From a virus, in the IMG/VR virus record IMGVR_UViG_3300033141_005088, positions 1 through 49,883 of that record: a stretch of DNA of 49,883 nucleotides, one strand, 5' to 3'. The stretch's first letter is position 1; each line of letters starts with the position of its first letter. Shown here piece after piece: positions 5,344 through 41,030 of the stretch. The notes under the pieces are model-generated. The model made no database searches. It was not told where the DNA came from and saw nothing but the letters and a program-made list of their open reading frames with translations. The translations under genes and the position numbers were made by a program.

Positions 5344-7892
5344 TGAATTTTTTAGATAGAGTTAAATTTTTATTTAGATTTAACACAAAAAGTTACAAGC
5401 TTTCAGAACTACTACCATCATGGTATTCGGGAAGGCCTGTATGGACGGACTGGAGTACAAAGAGAGCAATAAAGTACGGCTTTAAGTCCTCCACATGGGT
5501 TTATGCATGTATATATAAGATTATGAAAGCAGTAGCGAGTGTTCCTTGGAAAGTAAGAGATGCAAACACAAAAGAAGATATAGAAAACAGTCCACTGGAG
5601 GAACTTTTAAGAAAACCAAATCCTTGGATGAGTGGGCAGAATTTATTTGAAAGGCTGGTTACTCATCTCTATCTTGGAGGCAATGGTATCTGGGGGAAGG
5701 TAAGAGTAAATAGAATAGTTGTTGAACTCTGGCCGTATCATCCTGATTCAATAAGACCGGTACCTTCAAGAACTGAGTTTATATTAAAGTATACGTATAA
5801 AGATGGAAACATTGTAAGGGATATAGATTCAGCAGATATAATTCATTTTATGTTTTGTGACCCTGATAATCCTTATTGGGGGCTTGCGCCTCTCCAGGCA
5901 GGAGCAAAAACTGTAGATACAGATGTTGAGGCAGTAAATTGGAATAAGATAGCGCTTCAAAATAGAGCTATAACAGACGGGGTATTTTCTTTTAAAGATT
6001 TTCTTACAAATGCCCAGTGGCAAGCAGCAAGAGAAAAACTGAGGGAGCAGCACCAAGGTTCTACTAATGCAAGAAATCCATGGGTGCTTGATGGTGGAGC
6101 AACTTGGCAACAGATGAGTCTATCGCCTGCAGAGATGGATTTTATAAATTCAAGGAAAATGACTGCTACTGAAATCTGTGCAATTTTTCAAGTACCTCCA
6201 CCACTTGTAGGGTTAACCGAGAAAACTCCCTACGCCAATATGAAAGAGGCAAGGGCAATATTTTGGCTTGATACAATAATACCACTACTTGAGGACCTTC
6301 AAAGTGGAATAAATTTGGTACTTACTCCTGAGTTTGGGCAGGGTATTGAGGTTTATCCTGACCTATCAGGGGTTGAAGCGTTAAAGAAGTATTTTGCTGA
6401 ACAAGTAGAAACTGCTGAAAAACTGTGGAATATGGGAGTTCCATTTAATGAAATAAATAGAAGGTTAGAGCTTGGATTTGATGAAATACCAGGCGGAGAT
6501 ACAGCTTATGTTGCAGGAAATAAACTACCTGTTGGAACCATAGAAGAAGGAAAAGAGATAGCTTACTTTAGGATAAAAAAAAATCCTAAAACGTTAAACC
6601 TGCAAACTGAGGAGCAAAAAGCTGCTTACTGGAAAGCATTTGATAGGAGAAGGATTGGTTGGTTTGGTCAAGCTTCGAGAATGTTTAGGAACAATTTTAA
6701 CGAAGAAGCAGAGTTATTAAGTGAAGCTTATAAAAAAGGGAAAGATATAAATGAGGTTTTAGATAGCCGTCTCAATCGGTGGATAGACACATTGAAAAGG
6801 TTGTACTTGCTTGTGATAGAGGATTTTGGCACAGAAACTTACGAAGAGCTTTTGAAGGGCCATTCAGATTATAGAAGAAAGGATTTTAACCCGTTTGGTT
6901 CATTTATATTAGCCTGGGCGGAAGAGACTGCAGCTAAAAGAGCAACTTTGCTTTTAGGGACGTCCAAGAAGTTTGCAAATAAAATAATAACCCAAGGAGT
7001 AGAAGAAAACTTGACTACCGACAAGATATCAAGAAATTTAAGAGAATTCTATAGTGAAGATGCAAACTATCGTGCTATGAGGATGGCTCGTACTGAGGTT
7101 GTAGCTGCTTCAAATTATGGCTCTTATATGGGGGCAAAGGATACCGCAGTACAAAATTTAAAGAAGACCTGGATATCTGCAAGGGATAGTAGAGTAAGAG
7201 ATAGTCATTCTAATATAGATGGTCAAACTGTGGATATTGATGGTAAATTTAATGTAAACGGGTATATGATGGGATACCCGGGAGACCCTGCAGGGCCAGC
7301 AGAAGAGGTTATACATTGTAGATGTACTTTGGCTTATAAGACTGTTGTAACCAGAACAACAAAACCTTCTTATGCAGAAGAATATAGTGAGGATTTCAAG
7401 AAATCAGCTGCTGAAGTAGAAAATGAAATTAAGACTAGAAGGACAGAAAAGGCATTTGTTTTAGATAAGGATGGTAAGATTTTACTTGAGAAGGAAGGGG
7501 CAAAAGAGAATGTAACCTTTACTTCATATGAACTTGAGCGGCTTGAAGGCAATACTCTTATTCATAATCACCCTAATGGATTTAGTTTTTCGTTAGATGA
7601 TGTAACAATGTTTCTTTCGTACAAAGAAAGGGAGATGAGAGCTATAGGGAAATTGCGTGGCAAAGACGTATATAGATATATCTTAAAAACAAGGAAGCCA
7701 GGAGTTTACCCTAATGAAGCTCAAGTAAGAGCTGATTACTTAGCTGAATATAGAAGAGCTAGAGAGAATTATGCGAAAAGAATAAGTAAAGTTGGTGTAA
7801 ACCGGGCAGGCTTTGAGGCTTACAATGAAATGATGGAAAACCTTGTAAAAAAACACAAGGAACTTATTTATATATGTGAGAAGGTGGAATGA
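5340..7892 (+). CDS. Portal protein fused to MuF-like and JAB-like domains
   Basis: 850 residues, about twice a normal HK97-type portal. Residues 1 to about 400 match the portal family ([20 protein letters not shown]; later [17 protein letters not shown]). About 545-670 is a MuF minor-head domain with the hallmark [17 protein letters not shown] and ending in [12 protein letters not shown]. About 690-850 carries [14 protein letters not shown] (HNHP near 741), reminiscent of JAB/MPN metallopeptidases and RadC. The portal forms the DNA-entry ring, and MuF domains are carried inside the head. The frame is continuous, so this is a true fusion. Confidence 0.88.
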
Positions 7893-10887: not shown

Positions 10888-10910
10888 TAGATTTGAGAGG
10901 AAAGCAAAAA

Positions 10911-12605
10911 GTGGAGGAAGTAAAGGAAGTAAAAGTAGTAGCTTTGAAGACTTTTGCTCATTATTCCAAAACATATAGGAAAGGTACTGTTTTTAATTTG
11001 GATGCCGGTCTTGCTGAGAGGTTGAGGGATAACAGACTGGTAAGAATCCTCATAGAAGACGCTACCTCAGTACACGATAAAGTAAGTATAGTAATTCTGG
11101 TAAAAGATGCTCTAAAGTATGTTCAGAATTGTATAAGAAGTGTAAATAGGTACACTAATAACTTTGAACTTATAATTGTTGATAACGGTTCAAACGCGGA
11201 GACTAAAAAGTGGTTATCTGACCTTGACTGGTTAGACTTTACGCTCATTGAAAATGAAAAAAATATGGGAGTAGCATACGGGTGGAATCAAGGTATTAAG
11301 GTAGCAAAGTATGATTATATATGTTTTTTAAACTCGGACACTCTCGTTTCACCAGGCTGGCTTCCAAGACTTATGGAAGGGTTTAAGAGGTATCCTGAAG
11401 CTGGAATTGTTGGTCCCTCTACTTCTAAGAGTTCTACAGTTCAGTCTCCTCAGACTCTAAAAGATTTTAGAAAAGCTGGCCAGAAAGATGTAGACCAGAT
11501 TTCAGCTACCTTAAAGAAAACTTATGAGGTTACTCCGGTAGTAGGCTTTTGTTTTGTAGTTAGAAAAGAGGTATTTGAAACTATAGGTGTTTTTGACTAC
11601 AGACGCTATGGTCTTGCAACGCATGAGGATATAGATTTTGTATGGAGAGCAGGTCTAAAAGGCTTTAAGTCAGTATGGTGTAGAGGCTCTTATGTTCACC
11701 ACTACGGTAACAGAACTACTCATGAGATGGGACTTAATCCCAGAGAGATTAGATTGAAGAATAAACCCGTATGGGAACAGCGCAAAAGAGATAAAAATCT
11801 CTATGTAGAAAACGATGTAGAACTTGGTAAAGTTAAAAGGATTAAAGGTAGAGTTCCAATACTTATGATTACCTGGAACCGGCTTGACTATACCAAAAAA
11901 GCTATTAAAGCGATAAGAGAGAATACTAAAGATTACAAGCTTTTTATATTTGACAATCACTCAACTGATGGTACCAGGGAATGTCTGAGGGAATTAGAAG
12001 ATGTAGAAATATATTACTCAGATAAAAATACAGGCCTTGTACCGCCAATGAACTATTTTTTGAGAAAGTACCCGGACCACAGATATGTAGCAAAAGTGGA
12101 TAACGACACTGTGGTATCAAAAGGATGGCTAAGAAAATTAAAAGAGGTAATGGAAGAGATACCGCTATTTGCAGTGGAAGCAGACCATTATCTTATGCTT
12201 TCCTATGATATAAAAGAAAATATGGATTATTATAGGCATCTTTATAAAGTAGATTTTAAAGGAGAAAGTTTATATCTTTCGGATATTGTTGGTGGAACTG
12301 GAACTATAATTAGGAGGTCAATGGTAGAAAAGATACCAGATGTATCAGGAACGCTATCCGGCTGGATACTCTATCAGAAAAAGAATGACTTTGTAAGTGC
12401 TTTTTATACTGGAGCCTGGGTGGATAGATTAGACCAGGAGGGAACTAATAGGTATAAAAAGGTAAGTGATTACCCTGATTATGATAGGATAATTAACCAG
12501 ATGAGGCCGAGAAAGAAAATAGGTTCTAAAAGGATAACCTCTAAAACTTTTGCTAACGTTAGAGAGAGAATGGAAAAGTGGTATGAAAGTTTACAATTAC
12601 GCTAA
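10911..12605 (+). CDS. Tandem GT-A (family 2-like) glycosyltransferase with N-terminal virion-type domain
   Basis: I choose the GTG at 10911, ten bases after GAGAGG, over the upstream TTG at 10893, which lacks a ribosome site. The first 45 residues (VKVVALKTFAHYSKTYRKGT) resemble the start of the gene at 14079. Two GT-A domains follow: VSIVILVKDALKYVQNCIRS with IIVDNGS and CFLNSDT (DxD-like), then VPILMITWNRLDYTKKAI with IFDNHSTDGT and KVDNDT. Such enzymes move sugars from nucleotide sugars to acceptors. Its place next to the capsid gene suggests virion glycosylation, which is inference. Confidence 0.85.
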   Translation: MEEVKEVKVVALKTFAHYSKTYRKGTVFNLDAGLAERLRDNRLVRILIEDATSVHDKVSIVILVKDALKYVQNCIRSVNRYTNNFELIIVDNGSNAETKKWLSDLDWLDFTLIENEKNMGVAYGWNQGIKVAKYDYICFLNSDTLVSPGWLPRLMEGFKRYPEAGIVGPSTSKSSTVQSPQTLKDFRKAGQKDVDQISATLKKTYEVTPVVGFCFVVRKEVFETIGVFDYRRYGLATHEDIDFVWRAGLKGFKSVWCRGSYVHHYGNRTTHEMGLNPREIRLKNKPVWEQRKRDKNLYVENDVELGKVKRIKGRVPILMITWNRLDYTKKAIKAIRENTKDYKLFIFDNHSTDGTRECLRELEDVEIYYSDKNTGLVPPMNYFLRKYPDHRYVAKVDNDTVVSKGWLRKLKEVMEEIPLFAVEADHYLMLSYDIKENMDYYRHLYKVDFKGESLYLSDIVGGTGTIIRRSMVEKIPDVSGTLSGWILYQKKNDFVSAFYTGAWVDRLDQEGTNRYKKVSDYPDYDRIINQMRPRKKIGSKRITSKTFANVRERMEKWYESLQLR

Positions 12606-13068
12606 AGAGAATGACTTGTTTGTTCAGTCGGCAATCAAGGAAAAGGAATTCAGGGAGTTTTTTAAAACTATAAACATAAAGACTGTGGTTGAGATTGGAA
12701 CATATAGAGGAGTATCAGCGGCCTATATAGCACAATTTGCTAAGAAAGTGTTTACTTTTGATATTGTAGACTGGGAAGAAAAATATAGGGTATGGTATGA
12801 GCTTGGAGTTGGAGACAGGATTAGGTATTTTACAATTAAGGATAGAGAAGATATTAGGAAAGTTTTAGGTGGAATAGATTTTGATTTTGCATTTATAGAC
12901 GGAAAGCATACCTATGAAGATGTGAAGGCTGATTTTGAGTTGTTAAAAAGGTGCGGGAGAGTACTATTTCACGATGTGGCTAAGAGAAAGAATTATGGTT
13001 TGAGACGGTTTGTTAAGAGAATTGAAGCAAAAATAGAAGGTAATATAGCCTATTGGGAGAGTAGATGA
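12583..13068 (+). CDS. Class I SAM-dependent methyltransferase
   Basis: About 161 residues from the ATG at 12583 (a TTG at 12550 is an alternative). TVVEIGTYRGVSAAYIAQ is the SAM-binding motif I, FTFDIVDW is motif II, and DFAFIDGKHTYEDVKADFEL with VLFHDVAKR is the pattern of Methyltransf_24/CmcI-like enzymes that modify sugars or small molecules. The start lies inside the end of the glycosyltransferase gene, and the stop overlaps the next methyltransferase (ATGA). The three genes form one cassette. Confidence 0.82.
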   Translation: MKVYNYAKENDLFVQSAIKEKEFREFFKTINIKTVVEIGTYRGVSAAYIAQFAKKVFTFDIVDWEEKYRVWYELGVGDRIRYFTIKDREDIRKVLGGIDFDFAFIDGKHTYEDVKADFELLKRCGRVLFHDVAKRKNYGLRRFVKRIEAKIEGNIAYWESR

Positions 13069-13844
13069 AATACATAATAAAAGAGATTTTAGGTTCTAAA
13101 ATATGTCTTATCTCTTCTGATTTAGGACTTTCAAAACAGCTTTTAGAACACGGAGCCAGAGAGCAGGCTTCAACTGATTTTATTAAAAAGATACTAAGGC
13201 CTGACTGGACAGTTATAGATATAGGTTCAAATTTGGGTTACTACGCGCTCCTTGAAGCTAAGATATGTAGGTTTGTTTATGCAATTGAGCCTATAGGTGA
13301 AAGTGTAGAAGCACTAAAGGAAAGTATTAAACTAAATGGTTATAAGAATATAAAAGTTTACAGACTTGCAATATCGGATAAAGATGGGTATGCAGAAATA
13401 AGAACTTCAAGACGTTCTAACTGGGCAACTATGGTTGATGAAAGTAAAACGCAGGAAAGCTACAGGGAAAAGTTTAACAGGTTTAAATCTGTAACACAAA
13501 AGATAGATACAATGACTCTGGACAGCTTTGTAGAATTTGAAGGGATAGAAAAAATTGATTTTATAAGGATGGATGTAGAAGGCTATGAGGTAGAAATTGT
13601 AAAGGGAATAGATAAGACTTTTAAGCTTATGCCTTCTGGCTCGCACCTTTCAGTGGAATTTCATCCAGCTATTTTTAAAGATAGGAGTAATTTGATTGAT
13701 ACTTTAGATAGAATACTAAAAAATGGATTTGAGATAGTTAGAATAACTACTCATGATAGAAGTTATCTACCAGATGATGTGAACCTGCGAAAGTGGCTTT
13801 TAGAGAAAGGAGCTTGTCCACAGGTATTTTTTGTAAAAACCTAA
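13065..13844 (+). CDS. FkbM-family methyltransferase
   Basis: 259 residues. TVIDIGSNLGYYALLEAK binds SAM, YAIEPIGESVEALKESIKLN follows, and LDSFVEFEGIEKIDFIRMDV plus EGYEVEIVKGI is the FkbM signature. FkbM enzymes usually O-methylate sugars or polyketides. Next to a tandem glycosyltransferase, the likely substrate is a transferred sugar. The ATG overlaps the previous stop. Codon use is like its neighbours, so if it was acquired, that was not recent. Confidence 0.85.
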   Translation: MKYIIKEILGSKICLISSDLGLSKQLLEHGAREQASTDFIKKILRPDWTVIDIGSNLGYYALLEAKICRFVYAIEPIGESVEALKESIKLNGYKNIKVYRLAISDKDGYAEIRTSRRSNWATMVDESKTQESYREKFNRFKSVTQKIDTMTLDSFVEFEGIEKIDFIRMDVEGYEVEIVKGIDKTFKLMPSGSHLSVEFHPAIFKDRSNLIDTLDRILKNGFEIVRITTHDRSYLPDDVNLRKWLLEKGACPQVFFVKT

Positions 13845-32071: not shown

Positions 32072-34411
32072 TTACTTATTTCTCTTATCAAGGCTACCCC
32101 AACGCTCTCCAATATTAATACCTATCTTAAATGGAATTGGAGAATCAATAGGACAATTTTCCTCCATCTCATACTTTACCACTGAGATGACTTCATCGAC
32201 TTTATCCGGCTTAACCTCTATTAGGATTGAATCATGAACTGTTAGCAGAATACGTGCTTCATCTGGATTAAAACGATTGTGCAGTCTTACCAGAGCTGTT
32301 AAACATAAATCAGATGCCATTGACTGAATTGGTGCGTTTACCGCTTGCCTAAGAATCTCTCCTTTATTGCTATTGAGGATAATCGGAAATCTCCTTTTTC
32401 TTCCAAAGGGAGTAGTTACATATCCTTGAGTGATAGCTTGGTTTCTAACTTCCTCCATCCATCCTGCCAGACCTCGAAATCTGGAGAGGAAGGAATCAAT
32501 GTATCGTTGAGCCTCTGCAACGGAACACTTTAGTTCTCCGAAAGCTAGAGACTTGGCTCCTCGTCCATAAATAATCCCAAAATCAATAAATTTAGCTACA
32601 TGGCGTTGGCGTTCTGTTACCTTTTCTGCCGGGATATTAAACACCTCTGAAGCTACCATTCTATGTACATCTTTGTCTTCTTTATAGTATTTTGTTAGGA
32701 GTTCATCTCCACTATAGTAAGTTGCACACCTGAGTTCTAGTTGGCTATAATCAGCTTCAACAAGTACCCATCCTGGAGTTGCGACAAAAGCATCCCGAAT
32801 TAAAGGGCCGACCAGAGCTGGGATATTCTGAAGATTCGGATTGCGGCTTGAAAGCCTTCCCGTAACCGTTCCATGGAGAAGGAAATCAGCGTGAACTCGA
32901 CTATCTGGAGAGACTTTACTTAAAAGACCTTCAACAAATGTCCCTTTTAGGGTTTGGAGCTTGCGGTATTCTAAAATAAGTTTCACAGCTTCGTGCTGGT
33001 CAGCCATCTGTCTGAGGGCTCTTTTATTTGTCGAAGTTCCTTTCAACCTAAGTTTGCCATACAAAAACTCGCTTACCTGTTTTGGTGAATTCGGGTTGAA
33101 CTTAGGGCCTGCAACCTCTTGAAGCTTTAGTAGAATACTACCCAGTTGCTGGTTTATTTGGTTTTGCAGGCTTGCCAAATATTCGATATCAAGTCGTACC
33201 CCTACCAACTCAATCTGGCTAAGAGCCAAAGAAGCAGGAACCAAGATTTTATCGTGAACATCTCTAACTTCATCTTTCTCCATATCTCGAACTAAATCTT
33301 GACTGAGAAGTAGAGTGTAATAGGTATCTAAAGCATTATATTTTGACAACATTTCAAAAGGTAAATCCTTATAATTTGGTTCTACATACTCAGGAGGCTC
33401 GAGATTAGACTTCTTTGCAAGCCGAATCTCCTTTAGTCTCTCCGCTCTCAAATCTCTGAGAAATTGTTTAACCGGAAGAGTGTAATCTGGAGCATCATAG
33501 TAATCTCGGGCTATCTCCTCGAGCCTATGCCCGCCTCGCCTTTCGTCTAAGGTATAATGAGCAAGCATCGTATCAATCTGAGGTTCCCACTGAATCCCAA
33601 GCTTGTAGTTTAGAAACTTAGCATCAAAGCTTACATTTTGACCGCCTGAGATTATAGGAGATTCAAAAAGCTCTTTCAATTTAGAGACTACAAATTTATT
33701 TCTAAGCAGTTCTCCGGGTATCTGATAGCATTTTTCTTTCCTTGATTGAATCCCTATCAGTAAGATTTCACCAACCAGAGGGTTTAAATCCGTTGTTTCA
33801 ATATCACAAACAAACCTACCATCGCGTTTAACATCTTCAATCATTTCAAGAACGTCCATAATATTTCTACAGACTTTAATCTCCGGTATTTTGTGTTCAA
33901 TAACGTTCTCAGAGTCAAAGTCAACTATTTTCTTTACATCTTTTGCAAAGTCTGTGAAATCTATAGGAACTCGGAGAATCTTAGCGGGATGCCAAGTTAT
34001 AATTGCGTGAGCCTGGAGTTCTTCAATCCAAAAAACTCTCCCTCGATTTGTTGTAATAGGCAATCGTTCAGGAGCCACTGATTGAGCTGCTATAGCCCCA
34101 ACCAGTAGAAGCTTCTTACACCCTCGAATCTCCTCAAAAAGCCTATCTCTGCAGCATTCAATAGCTAAACTATCGGGAGTTGCATTACCTGGAGGGTGGC
34201 AGAGGCAGGCATTTGTTATCCAGATAGATTCGGGTTTAATACCTGCTTCTTGGAGAGTCATCCGTAGAATCTGCCCTGCCTTCCCTACAAAAGGCTTTCC
34301 GAGTTTAGCTTCCATTTGTCCTGGAGCCTCTCCAACTACCACAAAATCTTTCTTGGTTCCAACTCCAGGGACTTTTGGTCTTCCATTTAATGGACACTCT
34401 TTACATCTCAA
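32072..34411 (-). CDS. Fusion of family-4-type uracil-DNA glycosylase and DNA polymerase I
   Basis: 779 residues, TTG start. About 1-185 is a uracil-DNA glycosylase: CKECPLNG, VVGEAPGQMEAKLGKPFVGK and ACLCHPPGN, with four Cys for an iron-sulphur cluster. About 195-370 is a 3'-5' exonuclease (FVCDIETTDLNP). About 430-779 is family-A polymerase: motif A VEADYSQLELR, motif B RHVAKFIDFGIIYG, motif C LTVHDS. No 5' nuclease domain. It should copy the phage genome while removing uracil. Fusion reading frame is continuous. Confidence 0.93.
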   Translation of the reverse strand: MRCKECPLNGRPKVPGVGTKKDFVVVGEAPGQMEAKLGKPFVGKAGQILRMTLQEAGIKPESIWITNACLCHPPGNATPDSLAIECCRDRLFEEIRGCKKLLLVGAIAAQSVAPERLPITTNRGRVFWIEELQAHAIITWHPAKILRVPIDFTDFAKDVKKIVDFDSENVIEHKIPEIKVCRNIMDVLEMIEDVKRDGRFVCDIETTDLNPLVGEILLIGIQSRKEKCYQIPGELLRNKFVVSKLKELFESPIISGGQNVSFDAKFLNYKLGIQWEPQIDTMLAHYTLDERRGGHRLEEIARDYYDAPDYTLPVKQFLRDLRAERLKEIRLAKKSNLEPPEYVEPNYKDLPFEMLSKYNALDTYYTLLLSQDLVRDMEKDEVRDVHDKILVPASLALSQIELVGVRLDIEYLASLQNQINQQLGSILLKLQEVAGPKFNPNSPKQVSEFLYGKLRLKGTSTNKRALRQMADQHEAVKLILEYRKLQTLKGTFVEGLLSKVSPDSRVHADFLLHGTVTGRLSSRNPNLQNIPALVGPLIRDAFVATPGWVLVEADYSQLELRCATYYSGDELLTKYYKEDKDVHRMVASEVFNIPAEKVTERQRHVAKFIDFGIIYGRGAKSLAFGELKCSVAEAQRYIDSFLSRFRGLAGWMEEVRNQAITQGYVTTPFGRKRRFPIILNSNKGEILRQAVNAPIQSMASDLCLTALVRLHNRFNPDEARILLTVHDSILIEVKPDKVDEVISVVKYEMEENCPIDSPIPFKIGINIGERWGSLDKRNK

Positions 34412-35198
34412 GAGAACTCACCCTCTTACCTCGAGCCCACTTCTTCATAATAAGTATATTTCTCTTTGCAGCCTCAATATCTATATCAGTCAACTCAAAG
34501 AAGTTTACCTGCCGTGTAGGGTACTTGGGCTGACTTCCGCGAGGATTAGAGTTCAACACAAGTCCACCAGCTGCATACACAATAGGTTTTGAACTATCAA
34601 CCCCTCTAATATGAGAAGATAGCCAGTCATTGCTTGCGATTTCAAAGAATTGAGAGAAATTCCTTCCAATTCCCAGAAGGTGAATGGCAACGTCTCGGTT
34701 GAGTCTCCTAGCTGCCAAAATAGTTGAGAAGACTAAAACGGGAATCCCTCCATCCCAGCCTTCAAGAGCTTTAGGGATTCCTATTGTATCAACCCCGAGT
34801 TCCAGAAGACCTTCTAAACAAACCAAGAATTCCCGGAACGTTCGTCCTTGAGGAACTCCCATAATTCTAATACCAGGGAGCTCTTCCCGGATACGGTGGT
34901 ATGCTTCAATAGACCTTTCCAAAGTATCATCTCCAAAGAACTGACGGTCTGGTAAAACTATTTCTTGGCACTTGATTTCCTTTGCAAGTGAAATTTGCAA
35001 GTCTAAAGAACCTGCTTCGCCCATCTCATGCGCAGAGTTGTCTAAGATAACAAAGTCTCCTTCTCGGATTCTTGTTTGATAGAAATTAATGTAAGCAACT
35101 GAGCTCTCTGCGACATGAGGGAGAATCAAATGGTATCTGTCTCCGTAACGGGTCAACCACTCGAGAAAATGAATTGGGGTTATTACAGCAAGCTGCAT
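34401..35198 (-). CDS. dpdA: DpdA-like DNA 7-deazaguanine transglycosylase
   Basis: 265 residues, AGGAGGAGCA site. A TIM-barrel protein of the tRNA-guanine transglycosylase superfamily: VILDNSAHE and EIVLPDRQFFGDD provide the two Asp in positions used for base exchange; MGVPQGR and LGVDTIGIPKAL continue the barrel. It lacks the zinc-site tail of bacterial Tgt. With queC, queE, folE and queD nearby, it most likely inserts preQ0 into phage DNA. The start overlaps the upstream gene by 16 bases. Short-form DpdA is my best match. Confidence 0.75.
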   Translation of the reverse strand: MQLAVITPIHFLEWLTRYGDRYHLILPHVAESSVAYINFYQTRIREGDFVILDNSAHEMGEAGSLDLQISLAKEIKCQEIVLPDRQFFGDDTLERSIEAYHRIREELPGIRIMGVPQGRTFREFLVCLEGLLELGVDTIGIPKALEGWDGGIPVLVFSTILAARRLNRDVAIHLLGIGRNFSQFFEIASNDWLSSHIRGVDSSKPIVYAAGGLVLNSNPRGSQPKYPTRQVNFFELTDIDIEAAKRNILIMKKWARGKRVSSLEM

Positions 35199-35533
35199 TG
35201 CTCCTCCTTTCCTTCTCCCTTGTGCTGTTCTTCTATCATTAAAACCAAAGCTCCAGCAAAGGCTGCGTAATTAATGATATCAATGAAACTGTCCAGAGTC
35301 TCTCTATAGTTCTGGACTTTAGAGAGACTCTCGGCTCTCATAACCTTCTTGTAAATCTCAAAGATGCAATCCTGTATACCATGAATGAAGTACTCGGGAA
35401 TTGAAAAATCATTATTATACCCTTTGCCTCTTTCTACCAGGATTGATTCAGCTCGATTCTTTATATCTTCAACCTTTTTTAGGAAGTCAGACTGAAGATT
35501 GTCTCTACTGAAATAAGAATCTGTAATTTTCAT
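35183..35533 (-). CDS. Nmad1/DUF1599-like protein, 116 aa
   Basis: Helical protein with ILVERGKGYNNDF, then IFEIYKKVMRAESLSK and DSFIDIINYAAFAGAL. The G..Y, K..R and D..N-Y-A spacing recalls the nucleotide-modification-associated domain 1 (DUF1599), a MazG-like helical fold. That would suit its place directly before the DpdA-like gene, with which it overlaps. The match is by pattern only, so the call is tentative. Confidence 0.5.
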   Translation of the reverse strand: MKITDSYFSRDNLQSDFLKKVEDIKNRAESILVERGKGYNNDFSIPEYFIHGIQDCIFEIYKKVMRAESLSKVQNYRETLDSFIDIINYAAFAGALVLMIEEQHKGEGKEEQCSLL

Positions 35534-35541
35534 CTCTTCTC

Positions 35542-36018
35542 CTATTGAATCTTGATTCTCGGTGACTTTGTAGGTCCTAAACCTTTTGGAACCGCTGCCT
35601 GAGACCCTTTATTAAGAGGAACCTTCTGCCCAGAGTCAAAAGCAAAATCCTTAATTTTATTCACAATCCCTCCTGCATAAGCCTCTTGGATAATTACTGC
35701 ACGACACTCAGCCCCAACGAGACTTTCAAAAAAGCCTTCTGGGAACTCTACCTCTCCTTTTAGAGAATCAGGGTCAACCCCTAAAGCTACAAGAGTTCTC
35801 TGGAGATAATAGGCAGGACCTCCACCAGGAGTTAGACTGTTTGTATGCCATATTTTTCTCCCTTGAAAGTCTCCTTCCCTTATCTCAAAGGTCCAGTTAA
35901 TATAAGGGTATTCAGACCTCTGACTCTCCCTGATTTCAGCTCCCACAAGCTGGAGTTTATAAACTCCTCCGGGAATCGGCTCAAAAGTTCCAACTTCAGA
36001 AAAATTTACTTTTATCAT
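35542..36018 (-). CDS. Probable single-stranded-DNA-binding protein (DUF669-like)
   Basis: 158 residues after AAGGAGGTAAAGAAA. GTFEPIPGGVYKLQLVGAEI, YPYINWTFEI, GRKIWHTNSLTPGG, and a C-terminal disordered tail with Gly, Pro, Ser and Lys. This is the plan of DUF669 proteins, which replace SSB in many phages and pair with a Sak4/RecA-like ATPase, as here. It lies between that ATPase and the modification genes. Confidence 0.75.
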   Translation of the reverse strand: MIKVNFSEVGTFEPIPGGVYKLQLVGAEIRESQRSEYPYINWTFEIREGDFQGRKIWHTNSLTPGGGPAYYLQRTLVALGVDPDSLKGEVEFPEGFFESLVGAECRAVIIQEAYAGGIVNKIKDFAFDSGQKVPLNKGSQAAVPKGLGPTKSPRIKIQ

Positions 36019-36041
36019 TTTCTTTACCTCCTTCTTACCTT

Positions 36042-36809
36042 TTATTTACTTACTAAATCTAAAATCTTCGGGAGTGTGGGCTCGACTACCATCCCTCCCA
36101 ACTTACCGCCTTCAGTTCGGTCCTTAGCTATAATCCCTTCTGTTGGTTGAGTAAACAGAGCTCTATATTGAACTTCCTGCCCTTCCTTAACCTCTGTAAC
36201 TACAGCTAAATAACCAACAATTGTGAGTAGTCCAGGTATCTCAAGCGCAAGCTGGCCGATTAGAGAAGGCCAATACTGAGTCTGTTTAGTTCTTGGGTCA
36301 GTCATTTGTTTAACCGCAGCTGAGAAGAAGACATGCATTGGCAGGTCTCGGAAGTACCTGATTAGCTTTCTCATCTGCGCAGCACTTTTCAGATAATCAT
36401 CTTGGTAAGCAATGTCTGGGTCATGTCTGGGATTAGTTTGAACTCCAGTCTCAACAATGCTTGTAAGGTTTAGGTAGTTCATTTCTGACAAGCTATCAAG
36501 CGCAACAGACCTGTAAGGGTTATCTTCATTAGTAGCTAGATACTCGTACACAATGTCAAAATCACTCCAGGACTTAATCTTAACCACATCAACCCTATCA
36601 ACTGAAGGCTTGACCTTCTTATTAGCCAGGTCTTCCAAAGAAATCTTGTGCACCAGTGATTCAATTGACTGTACTCCGGCTTCGAAATCAAGGAGCAAGG
36701 TCGGAGCAAGTCTTTGGTCCTTCATCTTAGTAGCAGATGCAAGTAGTGTTGTCTTCCCGTGCCCGGTTGGCCCGAAAACTATTAACTTCAGTGGATTTTG
36801 TATAATCAT
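36042..36809 (-). CDS. RecA-like recombination ATPase (Sak4/AAA_24)
   Basis: 255 residues. KLIVFGPTGHGKTTLLASA is Walker A; TLLLDFEAG and VALDSLSEMNYLNL supply the acidic residues of Walker B. The core fits the AAA_24 family, to which phage Sak4 annealing/recombination ATPases belong. It should act with the neighbouring DUF669-like protein and the PD-(D/E)XK nuclease in recombination-dependent replication or repair. Strong ribosome site. Confidence 0.85.
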   Translation of the reverse strand: MIIQNPLKLIVFGPTGHGKTTLLASATKMKDQRLAPTLLLDFEAGVQSIESLVHKISLEDLANKKVKPSVDRVDVVKIKSWSDFDIVYEYLATNEDNPYRSVALDSLSEMNYLNLTSIVETGVQTNPRHDPDIAYQDDYLKSAAQMRKLIRYFRDLPMHVFFSAAVKQMTDPRTKQTQYWPSLIGQLALEIPGLLTIVGYLAVVTEVKEGQEVQYRALFTQPTEGIIAKDRTEGGKLGGMVVEPTLPKILDLVSK

Positions 36810-36813
36810 CTCT

Positions 36814-37782
36814 TTACCTCCTTCTTCCTTCCTCTTTTATAAATAAAACATCCTTCAACGCTTCAACATCTCCTTTCTCATTTTCTACCTTGCAGAGAAC
36901 TCTGTAGGGACACGCCCAAACGCAATCCTTTGTTGAGCTTGGGTATATTGCTGTAGAAGGACTTCTCATCTCTCTTGACTCGTAAACTAAATTCTCCATA
37001 AAAGAAGTAAGCTCATTAGGATTCCTTGGAATAAGCTCTCTTTTGTAGAAGGTGTTTCCTTTCTGCTTCAAGAATTCCAGTACCTCTCCATAATCTTTTG
37101 GGTCCAGTCCTTCTTCAAGAATAGTCTCTAGATAAACTTTATAAGTAGTATCTACTGATTTGACCTTCGACAAAGCGCCGGACTTAAGCCTCAAAGGAGT
37201 GGTAGGGACTTTCTTCCTTAACTGGTTATAAATAGCACCCATAGGCATCTCTCCGTAAACAGTCCAAACCAACCATAGATACGCTGTCATTTGGTCATCG
37301 AGCTCTAAAACGTTAGGTTCAACAAAAGACCCAACTGTTTTATGGTCAACTACCCAGAGCTTTCCTTTTCTTCTTACAAGTAGGTCTAAAGTCCCGACAA
37401 GATAGTTATAGGTTCTTGGAATTCGAGCCTGCAGAGGAGTTTCAACAGCAATTACCTCAAAATCATCGTTAGCTTTAGCAAAATCAATATATCCTTTTAA
37501 CATCACCTCCATTAACTTGACTTTTTCTTGATAATCTCGAACATCCTCGGATGTAAAGTCCCTAAAAGCTTCTTCTGGAACAACCTCCTCTAACCAGCTT
37601 GATATTGCTTTAATAGGGTCTTCACCTCTGTAATACGCTGCAAGTCCAACATGAACACCTCTCCCAACCCAAAGCGCGTTTCTGGGTTCAGTTTTTGGAA
37701 ACAAATTCTGCCTATAACTATAGTCCCACAACCGTCTACAGAATTTGAACCGGGACCTTTCCGTAACATGTATAATACTCAA
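36814..37782 (-). CDS. PD-(D/E)XK nuclease (RecB/Cas4-like)
   Basis: 322 residues, TTG start after GAGGAGGTCAAGGCAA. ALWVGRGVHVGLAAYYRG holds the conserved His; LVGTLDLLVRRKGKLWVVDH gives the GxxD...D-K catalytic core (VDHKT). Cys near residue 16 (KFCRRLWD) and a final CVWACPYRVLC can bind an iron-sulphur cluster as in AddB/Cas4. First gene after the promoter at 37812-37840; operon with the RecA-like ATPase. Confidence 0.88.
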   Translation of the reverse strand: MSIIHVTERSRFKFCRRLWDYSYRQNLFPKTEPRNALWVGRGVHVGLAAYYRGEDPIKAISSWLEEVVPEEAFRDFTSEDVRDYQEKVKLMEVMLKGYIDFAKANDDFEVIAVETPLQARIPRTYNYLVGTLDLLVRRKGKLWVVDHKTVGSFVEPNVLELDDQMTAYLWLVWTVYGEMPMGAIYNQLRKKVPTTPLRLKSGALSKVKSVDTTYKVYLETILEEGLDPKDYGEVLEFLKQKGNTFYKRELIPRNPNELTSFMENLVYESREMRSPSTAIYPSSTKDCVWACPYRVLCKVENEKGDVEALKDVLFIKEEGRRR

Positions 37783-37811
37783 TTGCCTTGACCTCCTCTC
37801 ATATTATAATA

Positions 37812-37840
37812 ATTATAACCTGTTAAGGAAACGAAATCAA
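37812..37840 (-). promoter_or_regulatory. Promoter with TAACNNGTTA operator, recombination genes
   Basis: Minus strand TTGATT (37835-37840), 17 bases, TATAAT (37812-37817). The spacer end contains the dyad TAACCTGTTA (37816-37825, plus strand), overlapping the -10. Almost the same promoter and dyad occur at 41056-41084. Confidence 0.7.
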
Positions 37841-37845
37841 GTACT

Positions 37846-38235
37846 TTATTTTAAAAATTTTTGAGGAATCTTTGCCTTCTCGAGACCTAAGTAAACAATT
37901 CCATGACAAATAGCATCAGTTATATGCTGTGACCTGATTTCTGAAAAGTCGTACATCGGCCATTGATAAGCTCCTTTTATCTGAGAAGGGAACTGGCTTG
38001 TATATTTAACCTTAGCTCTTTCACAAAGGAACTTAACTACTCCTATAACCTCTAACCCAATCGGGTTAAATGACGCACGAGCAACTCTAATTTCCTCATA
38101 CAGAACAAGGTCTGACTCAGGAATAAGCACCGGAAGACCCTCCCAAGTCGGAAACTCACCGTAGTTAACCAAATACCCGTCCTGAAAGATAGCAAATCCG
38201 GTTATTCCCCCTGTATCGAGGGTTAACAGTTTCAA
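37846..38235 (-). CDS. RuvC-like Holliday junction resolvase
   Basis: 129 residues, TTG start with AGGAGGTATC. RNase-H fold: LLTLDTGGITGFAIF (first Asp), VLYEEIRV (Glu), and SQHITDAICHGIVYLG (last Asp on the C-terminal helix). Phage relatives cut branched DNA before packaging. Short, but the three acidic positions are in place. It follows queD after eight bases. Confidence 0.78.
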   Translation of the reverse strand: MKLLTLDTGGITGFAIFQDGYLVNYGEFPTWEGLPVLIPESDLVLYEEIRVARASFNPIGLEVIGVVKFLCERAKVKYTSQFPSQIKGAYQWPMYDFSEIRSQHITDAICHGIVYLGLEKAKIPQKFLK

Positions 38236-38243
38236 GATACCTC

Positions 38244-38621
38244 CTATTCTCTATACGTAACTCCTGCTTTTTCACTTTCCCAAATTGTCACAGACTCGAC
38301 CTCAAGTACATATAAATCCTCATCTTTCCTTAACAGCCTCTCTATATCTCTGTATATCCTTTTTGCAAGAAACTCGGCCGTAGGATTTTCGGTCTCATAC
38401 AACTCATTGAGGTACACATGGTCCGGGATAACTGCTTTCAAAATTCCTTTCAACTTTTTGAAATCCACAAACATGTTATCCTTTGGTAATGTCCGTCCAA
38501 GATGAGTAAATTCAACCTCAGCTTTTATAGTGTGCCCGTGTAAATTTCGGCAGGGTCCCTTGTAACTCTCGAGCTTGTGAGCTACGGCTCCGGTCGCTCT
38601 TATAATATACGCAAATGACAC
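38244..38621 (-). CDS. queD: 6-carboxy-tetrahydropterin synthase QueD
   Basis: I choose GTG 38621, directly after GAGGAGGAGTAAA; the upstream TTG (38636) lies inside that site. About 125 residues: GAVAHKLE, CRNLHGHTIKAEVEF with the catalytic Cys and two zinc His, DFKKLKGILK, and the terminal VTIWESEKAG. It makes 6-carboxytetrahydropterin from dihydroneopterin triphosphate, the second step to preQ0. Part of the block with folE, queE and queC. Confidence 0.9.
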   Translation of the reverse strand: MSFAYIIRATGAVAHKLESYKGPCRNLHGHTIKAEVEFTHLGRTLPKDNMFVDFKKLKGILKAVIPDHVYLNELYETENPTAEFLAKRIYRDIERLLRKDEDLYVLEVESVTIWESEKAGVTYRE

Positions 38622-38622
38622 T

Positions 38623-38817
38623 TTACTCCTCCTCAAAAATTTTCTTTAGTTTTTTAAACATTACATCATAGTCTAATAGTTTATGATTAACTACTTTTTC
38701 TACAAAGCTATCTAAAAGCTTCTCCATTTTTTTATATTTTATATTTTCTCTATATTGTTTTCTATCAGCTTCTTTTTCCATATTATATACTGTTAAAAAT
38801 CCGTCTTTCTGCACCAT
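38623..38817 (-). CDS. Hypothetical charged protein between folE and queD, 64 aa
   Basis: GCGAGGAAAAATA precedes the ATG. Lys/Glu-rich and mostly helical (MEKLLDSFVEKVVNHKLLDY, KKLKKIFEEE). The stop lies just ahead of the queD start, so the two are coupled. No motif is recognised and its A/T content is higher than the flanking queuosine genes. It may be a recent insertion in that block. Confidence 0.6.
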   Translation of the reverse strand: MVQKDGFLTVYNMEKEADRKQYRENIKYKKMEKLLDSFVEKVVNHKLLDYDVMFKKLKKIFEEE

Positions 38818-38839
38818 TATTTTTCCTCGCCTCTCCCTC

Positions 38840-39421
38840 CTAAATTCTTCTATCTTCGTAAGACCTAATCAAGCTTAAGAACTCGCTTTTTGCATTAGGG
38901 TTGTCGCGGAATATCCCTTTGAGAGAACTTGTTATAACTGCTGAATTCTGCTTAATACCTCTAGCTACCATACACATGTGCACTCCTTTTATCATAACGA
39001 TACTTCCTAAACACTCGAGCTCCTTATATAGAGCGTCTGCCAGAACCTCGGTATAAGTTTCCTGAAGAAATGGGTACTTGGCCATCACTACAACAAACCT
39101 GGCTATCTTCGATAGTCCAATAACATACTTCTTCGGAATGTACCCGACACTTACCCTATACAAAACCGGAAGTAGATGGTGGGGGCAGAGAGAAGATGCT
39201 TGAATCCCCGGTACAATCACCATCTCATTATTTGTTGAAGGGAATCTGGCTTTTGTAAACTTCCGAATCTGTGAATCAATTTCTTCTCGCGGTGAAATGT
39301 ACTCAGACAAATATGTAGCAATCCTCTTAGGGGTATCAACAAAATTCGGGTCATTAAGGTCAACCCCTAAGGCTTTCAACCCTTGTCTAATAGCTTCAGT
39401 AGTTAGTGTTATCTTTTTCAT
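38840..39421 (-). CDS. folE: GTP cyclohydrolase I (FolE)
   Basis: Start at 39421, after AAGGAGGAGAGT and overlapping the queE stop; an earlier in-frame start at 39445 is unlikely. About 193 residues: VDTPKRIATYLSE, SSLCPHHLLPV with the zinc Cys/His, GYIPKKYVIGLSKIARFV, LQETYTEVLADAL, MCMVARGIKQ. It converts GTP to dihydroneopterin triphosphate, the entry to preQ0. All expected active-site residues seem present. Confidence 0.93.
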   Translation of the reverse strand: MKKITLTTEAIRQGLKALGVDLNDPNFVDTPKRIATYLSEYISPREEIDSQIRKFTKARFPSTNNEMVIVPGIQASSLCPHHLLPVLYRVSVGYIPKKYVIGLSKIARFVVVMAKYPFLQETYTEVLADALYKELECLGSIVMIKGVHMCMVARGIKQNSAVITSSLKGIFRDNPNAKSEFLSLIRSYEDRRI

Positions 39422-40089
39422 ACTCTCCTCCTTTTTGAGCCCCAAATTACCTTATGTAATTGGGTTTGCAAAATACAATGTCTAAACGCGCTATCTTTGA
39501 CCATTAAAGCTGCTACATCTTGCATTAGCTTCTTATCCCCCCAAACCGGTGAAATATAAACAGGAGGGAGAAACTTCCTATATAGCTGCAGAACCTCTCT
39601 TACGAAAGCCATATCATCCAAGCTAGTTACTACAAACTTTACTACACCAGTATCCCTCAATTTTGGCAGGTTTTCTTTATAAATTCTAATATTCTTGTTC
39701 CCACTGCCTGGAGTTTTTATATCCATAACGACTTGTACTTGTAACCCCTGAGTAAACAACGCAGACGGAATTATCACCTCACCATTAGTCTCAAGTACAA
39801 TGTTTATAGATGGCTTCTTGGCAACTAACTTCTTTATGAGAATTAACGTACTCGCTGCTTGTAATAGTGGCTCACCACCTGTAATACATACATAGCTGGC
39901 TTGAGAATCTATTACCCTGGAGACTAAAGAGCTAATTTGTGCTACATATCCTGAGCTCTTGTCTTGAGCGTAGATTGTATCACAATAATTGCAACGTAGA
40001 TTGCAACCGGCTGTACGTATGAAATAGGTAACCCTGCCAGAAGAAGGCCCTTCGCCTTGAATGGATGTAAATTCTTCATTTACAAGCAT
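39418..40089 (-). CDS. queE: 7-carboxy-7-deazaguanine synthase QueE (radical SAM)
   Basis: Start at 40089, after ACGAAGGAGGAAGAC. About 223 residues. EEFTSIQGEGPSSGRVTYFI, then AGCNLRCNYCDT with the CxxxCxxC iron-sulphur cluster motif, ITGGEPLLQ and VLETNGE. It rearranges carboxytetrahydropterin to CDG. It overlaps both queC (start inside its end) and folE (ATGA), so the three are translated as a unit. Confidence 0.93.
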   Translation of the reverse strand: MLVNEEFTSIQGEGPSSGRVTYFIRTAGCNLRCNYCDTIYAQDKSSGYVAQISSLVSRVIDSQASYVCITGGEPLLQAASTLILIKKLVAKKPSINIVLETNGEVIIPSALFTQGLQVQVVMDIKTPGSGNKNIRIYKENLPKLRDTGVVKFVVTSLDDMAFVREVLQLYRKFLPPVYISPVWGDKKLMQDVAALMVKDSAFRHCILQTQLHKVIWGSKRRRV

Positions 40090-40765
40090 GTCTTCCTCCT
40101 TCGTACTCAATCGGGTCCGCAACTCCTGCTTTTGAAAAAGCCTCAAGCCTGCTTAAACAAGCTGAACACTTCCCGCAGGCTTTCTCTTTCCCGTTATAAC
40201 AAGTCCAGGTTAAATGGAATGGGGCACCGAGCTGAACTCCTACTTCAACAATTTCAGCTTTTGTTAAGTACTGGAATGGAACTATGAGACGGACTTGGTG
40301 ATAAGTCCCAACATAAATCGCGCTGCCTATTGCTCCATTAAACTCGGGAGTACAGTCGGGGTAAGCCCACTCAGCAGCATCATCAGCGTGAGCTCCATAG
40401 TAAATCAAGTCGGCTCCTTGACTCAAAGCTACTGCCGCTGCGCTCGAGAGAAGAACTCCATTTCGAAAAGGTACATATGTTGGAGAAACTCCTTGAATTT
40501 CAGCATAAGACTTCTCGGGAACTCCCTTTCTCCAGTTGATTAAGGAACTATCTGACCCCTTGAAAATATCCGGGATTACTATCTCCTGCCATAAGAGAAT
40601 CCCTAAGAACTTCGCAACTTTCTTCGCGGAGCTAATCTCTTTTTGATGCCTTTGTCCGTAATTAATAGTCAGTCCAATCACATTTTTTGCTCCGTGGTTC
40701 TTTACGGCCAGAGCTCCAACCGTTGTACTATCCATCCCTCCGGATAGTAATACTATAGCTGTCAT
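40076..40765 (-). CDS. queC: PreQ0 synthase QueC
   Basis: 229 residues, AAAGGAAATTACA site. PP-loop SGGMDSTTVGALAV for ATP, TINYGQRHQKEI, PTYVPFRNGVLLSSAAAVAL, and the C-terminal zinc site TCYNGKEKACGKCSACLSRL. It turns CDG into preQ0 with ammonia and ATP. The product can feed the DpdA-like enzyme. No QueF is seen in the window, so reduction to preQ1 is not expected. Confidence 0.94.
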   Translation of the reverse strand: MTAIVLLSGGMDSTTVGALAVKNHGAKNVIGLTINYGQRHQKEISSAKKVAKFLGILLWQEIVIPDIFKGSDSSLINWRKGVPEKSYAEIQGVSPTYVPFRNGVLLSSAAAVALSQGADLIYYGAHADDAAEWAYPDCTPEFNGAIGSAIYVGTYHQVRLIVPFQYLTKAEIVEVGVQLGAPFHLTWTCYNGKEKACGKCSACLSRLEAFSKAGVADPIEYEGGRHACK

Positions 40766-40793: not shown

Positions 40794-41030
40794 TCAAACT
40801 TTTACTTCCTTTAAATATCTCTCATAAGGAAGTAAGAGGTCTTCAGGATTGCCTTTAAACCTAAGAGTTTTGGCAATCTTTTTTAGAATTTCTTGGTTCG
40901 GAGAAATATAAGAGTTCTCTATGTATGATATCTCTGGTTGAGAAACTCCTGCAGCTTGAGCTAGTTCTATCTGCGTTATTTTCTTCTCTTTTCGGATAAC
41001 AGCTAAGGTTAATATCACACTCTTATTCAT
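40794..41030 (-). CDS. XRE-family transcription regulator, 78 aa
   Basis: AAGGAGGTGTGGA site. ITQIELAQAAGVSQPEISYI is a full helix-turn-helix, followed by ENSYISPNQEILKKIAKTLR, and a short tail, so it is only a DNA-binding domain. It is the first gene after the promoter with the TAACNNGTTA dyad, and heads the queuosine block. Inference: it binds that dyad at 41060-41069 and the copy at 37816-37825. Confidence 0.9.
   Translation of the reverse strand: MNKSVILTLAVIRKEKKITQIELAQAAGVSQPEISYIENSYISPNQEILKKIAKTLRFKGNPEDLLLPYERYLKEVKV

Follow-up and report, generated by a model that had tools for sequence, protein, structure and literature searches.

The virus record IMGVR_UViG_3300033141_005088 of IMG/VR, a linear sequence of 49,883 bases and unknown completeness, was analyzed over its whole length (hereafter the window). 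It carries genes for the four enzymes predicted to make 7-cyano-7-deazaguanine (preQ0) from GTP (folE, queD, queE, and queC) and a gene for a 265-aa protein, referred to here as dpdA, that is predicted to be a short DNA-guanine transglycosylase of the DpdA kind; together these genes would constitute a 7-deazaguanine DNA-modification system. The list of open reading frames (ORFs) places all five genes on the − strand, at the positions given by an earlier note on this DNA. Their order of transcription is queC, queE, folE, a 64-codon ORF, and queD, followed by genes for a RuvC-like protein, a Cas4-type exonuclease, a Sak4-like ATPase, and a DUF669 single-stranded DNA-binding protein (SSB); behind these, about 3 kb beyond queD, lie a gene for a 116-aa protein called Nmad1-like in the earlier note, dpdA, and a gene for a DNA polymerase with uracil-DNA glycosylase (UDG), exonuclease, and PolA parts (Table 1). 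The preQ0 genes had been described as four overlapping genes; counted from ATG starts supported by Shine-Dalgarno sequences, queC overlaps queE by 14 nt and queE overlaps folE by 4 nt, but queD stands apart from folE, separated by a 22-nt gap and the 64-codon ORF.

Table 1. Features of the window discussed in the text, with coordinates and the basis of each assignment
Feature	Coordinates	Strand	Basis or remark
queC, 7-cyano-7-deazaguanine synthase, 229 aa	40076..40765	−	PF06508 2.4e-56; canonical QueC signature
queE, 7-carboxy-7-deazaguanine synthase (radical SAM)	39418..40089	−	ATG 40089 preceded by GGAGG; open frame reaches 40146
folE, GTP cyclohydrolase I	38840..39421	−	ATG 39421 preceded by GGAGG; open frame reaches 39445; PF01227 1.6e-48
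64-codon ORF between folE and queD, no assigned function	38623..38817	−	ORF list only
queD, 6-carboxytetrahydropterin synthase, 130 aa	38244..38636	−	PF01242 2e-24; start codon tentative
116-aa Nmad1-like protein, probable all-alpha NTP-pyrophosphohydrolase superfamily	35183..35533	−	overlaps dpdA start by 16 nt
dpdA (short type), TGT-fold DNA-guanine transglycosylase (predicted), 265 aa	34401..35198	−	fold, family profile, conserved residues
UDG-exonuclease-PolA DNA polymerase	32072..34411	−	start overlaps dpdA stop; ORF list, Pfam of relatives
XRE-type regulator, small	40794-41030	−	
Glycosyltransferase-matching 570-aa protein and two methyltransferase-like genes	10893-13844	+	

As judged from their sequences, the products of the four preQ0 genes match their families far above chance: FolE, QueD, and QueC match the Pfam families in Table 1, and QueE matches Radical_SAM (2e-10) and the PHROG family QueE (7.9e-42). 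The active-site motifs are intact in each, namely CxHH (CPHH) and HxCMxxRG (HMCMVARG) in FolE, CxxxHGH (CRNLHGH) and DHxxLN (DHVYLN) in QueD, CxxxCxxC and GGEP in QueE, and SGGMDS, YGQRHQKE, VPFRN, YPDC, and C-x7-CxxCxxC in QueC, for which the nearest phage match is in Streptococcus phage MS1 (53%). Family matches and motifs together bear out the gene set for preQ0 synthesis from GTP that the earlier note had proposed.

The 265-aa protein by itself has no match in Pfam or NCBIfam; its family profile and predicted fold place it in the tRNA-guanine transglycosylase (TGT) superfamily. The AlphaFold2 model is a barrel (predicted local distance difference test, pLDDT, 96.7), and in each of two fold comparisons with the PDB all 50 of the 50 matches listed are TGTs (Foldseek E from 2.7e-7; Z 17.7, root-mean-square deviation 3.3 over 230 residues). 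The family profile, run against PDB sequences, has a sole match under 0.01, the DNA-guanine transglycosylase 7ui4 (5e-5). L26, Y36, D53, N54, E58, H173, G176, and D201 are invariant across 60 aligned sequences, and D84 is aspartate in 59 of them; D201, which sits in GVDSSKP, is a third acidic residue that the motif list of the earlier note had not included. The C-terminal zinc-binding cysteine motif of TGTs is absent from the protein, which has two cysteines only, C77 and C127. The structure prediction and profile search that the earlier note had called for thus agree with its DpdA-like assignment, as do the conserved acidic residues D53, D84, and D201, and the protein is, on its sequence and model, a minimal DpdA-type member of the TGT superfamily with predicted catalytic activity. 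An arginine is kept in 54 of the 60 short DpdA proteins at the A3 column of window residue 152; it is missing in the window protein and in loci L005, L007, L010, L018, and L021 of the collected relatives, all of one clade.

In a tblastn comparison with phage genomes, identity is about 31% with Weizmannia phage Youna2 and about 30% with the Bacillus BSTP phages; a protein of Flavobacterium phage immuto that carries the annotation DpdA is 24% identical. A search of viral contigs with the 265-aa protein as a single sequence gave no confirmed relative; a search of IMG/VR with a four-sequence alignment gave 310, mostly beside preQ0 genes, of which 80 were kept, with 60 sequences aligned and 59 non-redundant relatives used for neighborhood counts. 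The resulting short-DpdA profile matches proteins of immuto (1.2e-95) and CP220 (1.1e-59), Youna2 and BSTP5 fall in the same family, and the best-named fold match in BFVD is from Cellulophaga phage phiST. The window protein has the motifs of this family (LDN..E, PD, HLLG, and D(T/S)S) and is assigned by sequence to the short phage DpdA family with immuto, CP220, Youna2, and BSTP5. Because 84,980 genomes of bacteria and archaea, when scanned, yielded 4 loci only, on small contigs or contigs of metagenome-assembled genomes, the family looks essentially viral. We take it to be DpdA3, a subfamily allowing complete replacement that Cui et al. reportedly named in 2023.

Two other placements were rejected. 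Membership in the DpdA1 type of 9g and CAjan fails on sequence, as the records of CAjan, 9g, and Dp-1 hold no match to the 265-aa family at E ≤ 10, and membership in the DpdA2 type fails likewise, as the nt-1 record has no sequence match to the 265-aa protein; the nt-1 protein (464 aa; R9TGF0) turned up only in the fold search. Profile-profile alignment with the DpdA proteins of CAjan, Dp-1, and MS1 is weak (Prob 39, E 3e-4), the motifs of short DpdA and DpdA1 correspond (DNS/DSS, HLLG/HAFG, and VDSS/ADST), and the short-DpdA profile extends, at 5.7e-4, to one locus of the DpdA1 type.

With the immuto protein as query, a homolog is found in 14 Campylobacter phage records, labeled hypothetical where annotated. 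The homolog of Campylobacter phage CP220 (L099), at 6995-7771, is unannotated and has an HD-hydrolase/P-loop protein on one side and a P-loop kinase on the other. Campylobacter phages had been classed as having the pathway without DpdA, with a pointer to a report of DNA highly modified with 2′-deoxy-7-amido-7-deazaguanosine (dADG; Hutinet 2019); the short DpdA family also explains these phages.

We consider the locus to encode a short-DpdA system for 7-deazaguanine modification of DNA, with a probability of about 0.8, because of the family matches, the intact motifs, the TGT fold with its acidic residues, and the neighborhood of preQ0 genes and short dpdA repeated in dozens of virus contigs. 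FolE, QueD, QueE, and QueC would convert GTP to preQ0; the 265-aa enzyme would then break the N-glycosidic bond at a guanine of the DNA, holding the deoxyribose covalently, probably on D201, while D53 and D84 handle the base, and would re-join the deoxyribose to preQ0 to yield 2′-deoxy-7-cyano-7-deazaguanosine (dPreQ0). No later enzyme that would act on this base was found in the record. The level of modification may be high, if it resembles that of relatives in which deoxyguanosine (dG) is wholly replaced, and the likely benefit would be resistance to host restriction enzymes, an effect shown for CAjan (PMC6884629). Several observations weigh against this reading: QueD (TIGR03367, 6.4e-19) and QueE (TIGR03963, 6.6e-48) fall short of the NCBIfam equivalog cut-offs; direct sequence links to the DpdA1 and DpdA2 records named above are absent; a purely DNA-level enzyme leaves unexplained the nucleotide-pool enzymes encoded beside short dpdA genes (see below); and a later-step gene could be missing from a linear record of unknown completeness.

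The modified base would depend on enzymes acting after QueC. As the earlier note had stated, the record has no QueF and no glutamine amidotransferase (GATase), and YhhQ is absent from it as well. One weak QueF match in the window was rejected, since it falls inside folE, and the QueF matches in Youna2 and BSTP5 were rejected likewise, lying inside the folE genes of those phages. No formyltransferase, kinase, or PF18909-type gene, kinds seen beside other short dpdA genes, is recognizable in the window. Since no QueF, YhhQ, GATase, or other later base enzyme was found in the record, dPreQ0, the base that the earlier note had expected, is on these sequence grounds the likeliest product, though not a certain one. 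The alternative is dADG, which would result if QueC stopped at or released the amide intermediate; 'preQ0 or ADG' was predicted for such a gene set (Hutinet 2019), and dADG at 100% of dG is reported for CP220 and CPt10 (quoted in the MED16 paper, PMC8306585). The short DpdA and QueC of CP220 are related proteins, and this phage likewise has no QueF or GATase, so dADG must be kept as a possible, if unlikely, base for the window. It is disfavored by QueC itself: the window protein has every residue of the canonical QueC signature (defined in PMC13329287), save one residue fewer in the zinc loop, whereas CP220 QueC is altered, with FPDC for YPDC (F for Y) and YGSNH for YxQxH (S for Q in YxQxHxxE), and this single comparison favors preQ0. 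Among the other relatives, three loci (L014, L019, and L026) have a fused class-II glutamine amidotransferase-QueC protein after short dpdA, which suggests that these phages carry 2′-deoxyarchaeosine (dG+) rather than dPreQ0.

The surroundings of short dpdA genes are partly constant and partly variable. In most loci folE, queD, queE, and queC are near dpdA, and in 28 related loci polA is the gene directly after it; PolA adjacency as a specific trait of short DpdA was rejected, polA being also found near DpdA1. The window falls in a PolA-adjacent clade of the tree with L005, L007, and L008. The window polymerase appears to have an N-terminal UDG-like domain, an architecture common to about 20 dpdA-neighboring polymerases of related loci. 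Downstream neighbors of short dpdA include P-loop/deoxynucleoside kinase (dNK)-like kinases in 13 cases, and the immuto-like clade has formyltransferases and dNK/AAA_28 kinases there; the gene after dpdA is formyltransferase-like in 23 loci (L002 and many of L031-L083), often with a dNK-like gene next to it.

New here is a recurrent neighbor of the nucleoside triphosphate (NTP) pyrophosphohydrolase type, present beside dpdA or within about 1.2 kb of it in roughly half of the non-redundant relatives (30/59: PRA-PH 11, MazG 9, Nmad1-like 8, PF18909 dATP/dGTP diphosphohydrolase 1, and DUF6378, a putative member, 1). A comparable gene occurs in 1 of 47 non-redundant loci of the DpdA1 control (Fisher p 5e-9). 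In this comparison, the three profiles derive from the test set itself, the loci lack independence (the PRA-PH relatives form a single clade of the tree), and the identity level at which redundancy was removed differs slightly between the two sets. A Pfam comparison, which the profiles do not bias, agrees, with 9 PRA-PH and 5 MazG among 105 upstream neighbors of short dpdA and neither family among the 25 commonest of 66 in the DpdA1 control.

In the window, the 116-aa gene fills this slot beside dpdA, and the best guess from sequence and model is that it encodes a pyrophosphohydrolase. Its product matches Pfam Nmad1 (PF07659) at 0.0058, below cut-off; the model (pLDDT 83.5) has AF_0060 as its best fold match, then HisE/MazG-type chains, all of them weak (Foldseek E 0.26 and up, none below 0.1; Z 8.3) and no stronger than helical proteins can score by chance. 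The profiles of the Nmad1-like relatives and of the MazG neighbors cross-match (1.8e-6 to 7e-4), and hhalign gives E 0.004 but Prob 8. At least 8 non-redundant loci have a close Nmad1-like relative immediately before dpdA, in most cases overlapping its start by a few bases, and the earlier suggestion that this gene belongs to the same system looks correct. Its identification with the gene upstream of dpdA in Youna2 and BSTP5 was rejected, those genes encoding P-loop proteins.

The pyrophosphohydrolase neighbor opens a question to direct testing, namely by what route some phages replace all guanine and whether the exchange takes place on DNA or on free nucleotides. In the latter case, short DpdA would swap the guanine of a free deoxynucleotide, such as dGMP that the neighboring pyrophosphohydrolase makes from dGTP, for the 7-deazaguanine base, after which a kinase would recharge the product and the phage polymerase would incorporate it; such a pathway would parallel, for guanine, the 2-aminoadenine Z-genome and would account for both full dG replacement and the pyrophosphohydrolase and kinase neighbors. 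It accords with the excess of pyrophosphohydrolase-type neighbors over DpdA1 loci, with the downstream kinases and the HD hydrolase and kinase flanking the CP220 gene, with the complete replacement reported for CP220 and CPt10, with the precedent of MazZ, PurZ, and DatZ (PMC8342488), and with the character of the protein, which is acidic (family median isoelectric point 5.5) and without the TGT-type zinc motif. We nevertheless regard exchange on nucleotides as improbable: DpdA1 works on DNA without the polymerase of its phage (PMC6884629). PolA is a neighbor of DpdA1 too, phages commonly encode pyrophosphohydrolases, and no kinase of the kinds seen in the relatives is recognizable in the window. 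We know of no TGT-fold enzyme that uses mononucleotides, and Cui et al. are said to have concluded that insertion is post-replicative.

Much less probable still is a role in auxiliary metabolism, in which preQ0 would boost queuosine in host tRNA and the 265-aa protein would be a tRNA transglycosylase. The four preQ0 genes alone cannot tell these fates apart, and the fold matches are to tRNA TGTs; against this stand the missing C-terminal zinc motif, the lack of QueF, the match of the family profile to DpdA and not to TGT among PDB sequences, and the overlap of dpdA with a DNA polymerase gene. Service of the QueC-like protein in Qat or CBASS-type protein deazaguanylation, systems in which the QueC fold is reused (PMC13329287), is hardly credible given a canonical QueC signature, a full preQ0 pathway alongside, and a QatC model match that is weak (6.5e-5) and far under the cut-off.

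Other features of the window are of less direct bearing. The small XRE-type regulator gene just upstream of queC may control the operon; a search for a preQ1 riboswitch before queC gave nothing in Rfam at the gathering threshold and one chance match nearby, and no tRNA genes were found in the window. The glycosyltransferase-matching and methyltransferase-like genes directly follow the major head protein gene, and they possibly serve capsid or surface glycosylation or, conceivably, a second modification.

Compared with known systems, the window represents one more phage of a kind already described, equipped with a lone short DpdA and a minimal set of preQ0 genes. Bacterial tRNA TGT has the same barrel fold as the window protein and, in addition, the C-terminal zinc cysteine motif. 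The DpdA1 systems of CAjan, 9g, and Dp-1 share the preQ0 pathway and the TGT superfamily with the window; DpdA1 is longer (about 306–311 aa), has other motifs and no direct sequence match, and often has QueF, rarely a pyrophosphohydrolase, beside it. The Z-cluster of cyanophage S-2L (datZ, mazZ, and purZ) compares only in how it works, in that base-replacing genes lie beside a MazG-type (d)GTP diphosphohydrolase gene, with PolA in most such phages (PMC8342488); its base and chemistry differ, and neither purZ nor datZ was identified among the scanned proteins here. The short DpdA proteins of immuto, phiST, and CP220 are like that of the window in sequence family, catalytic residues, and the presence of preQ0 genes in the same genomes, whereas the window belongs to the PolA-adjacent clade, has no QueF or formyltransferase, and has an Nmad1-like rather than a PRA-PH neighbor. 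Bacillus phages BSP7 and BSTP5 and Weizmannia phage Youna2 share with the window a replication region that unites genes for an SNF2 helicase, a Cas4-type exonuclease, a Sak4-type ATPase, and a DUF669 SSB with queC, queD, queE, folE, dpdA, and polA, including the dpdA-polA junction in BSTP5 and Youna2; their DpdA proteins are about 29–33% identical to that of the window, and a P-loop kinase-like gene, not an Nmad1-like one, precedes dpdA. In BSP7 and BSTP5 the same module is carried by phages of Bacillus subtilis, a host well suited to laboratory work.

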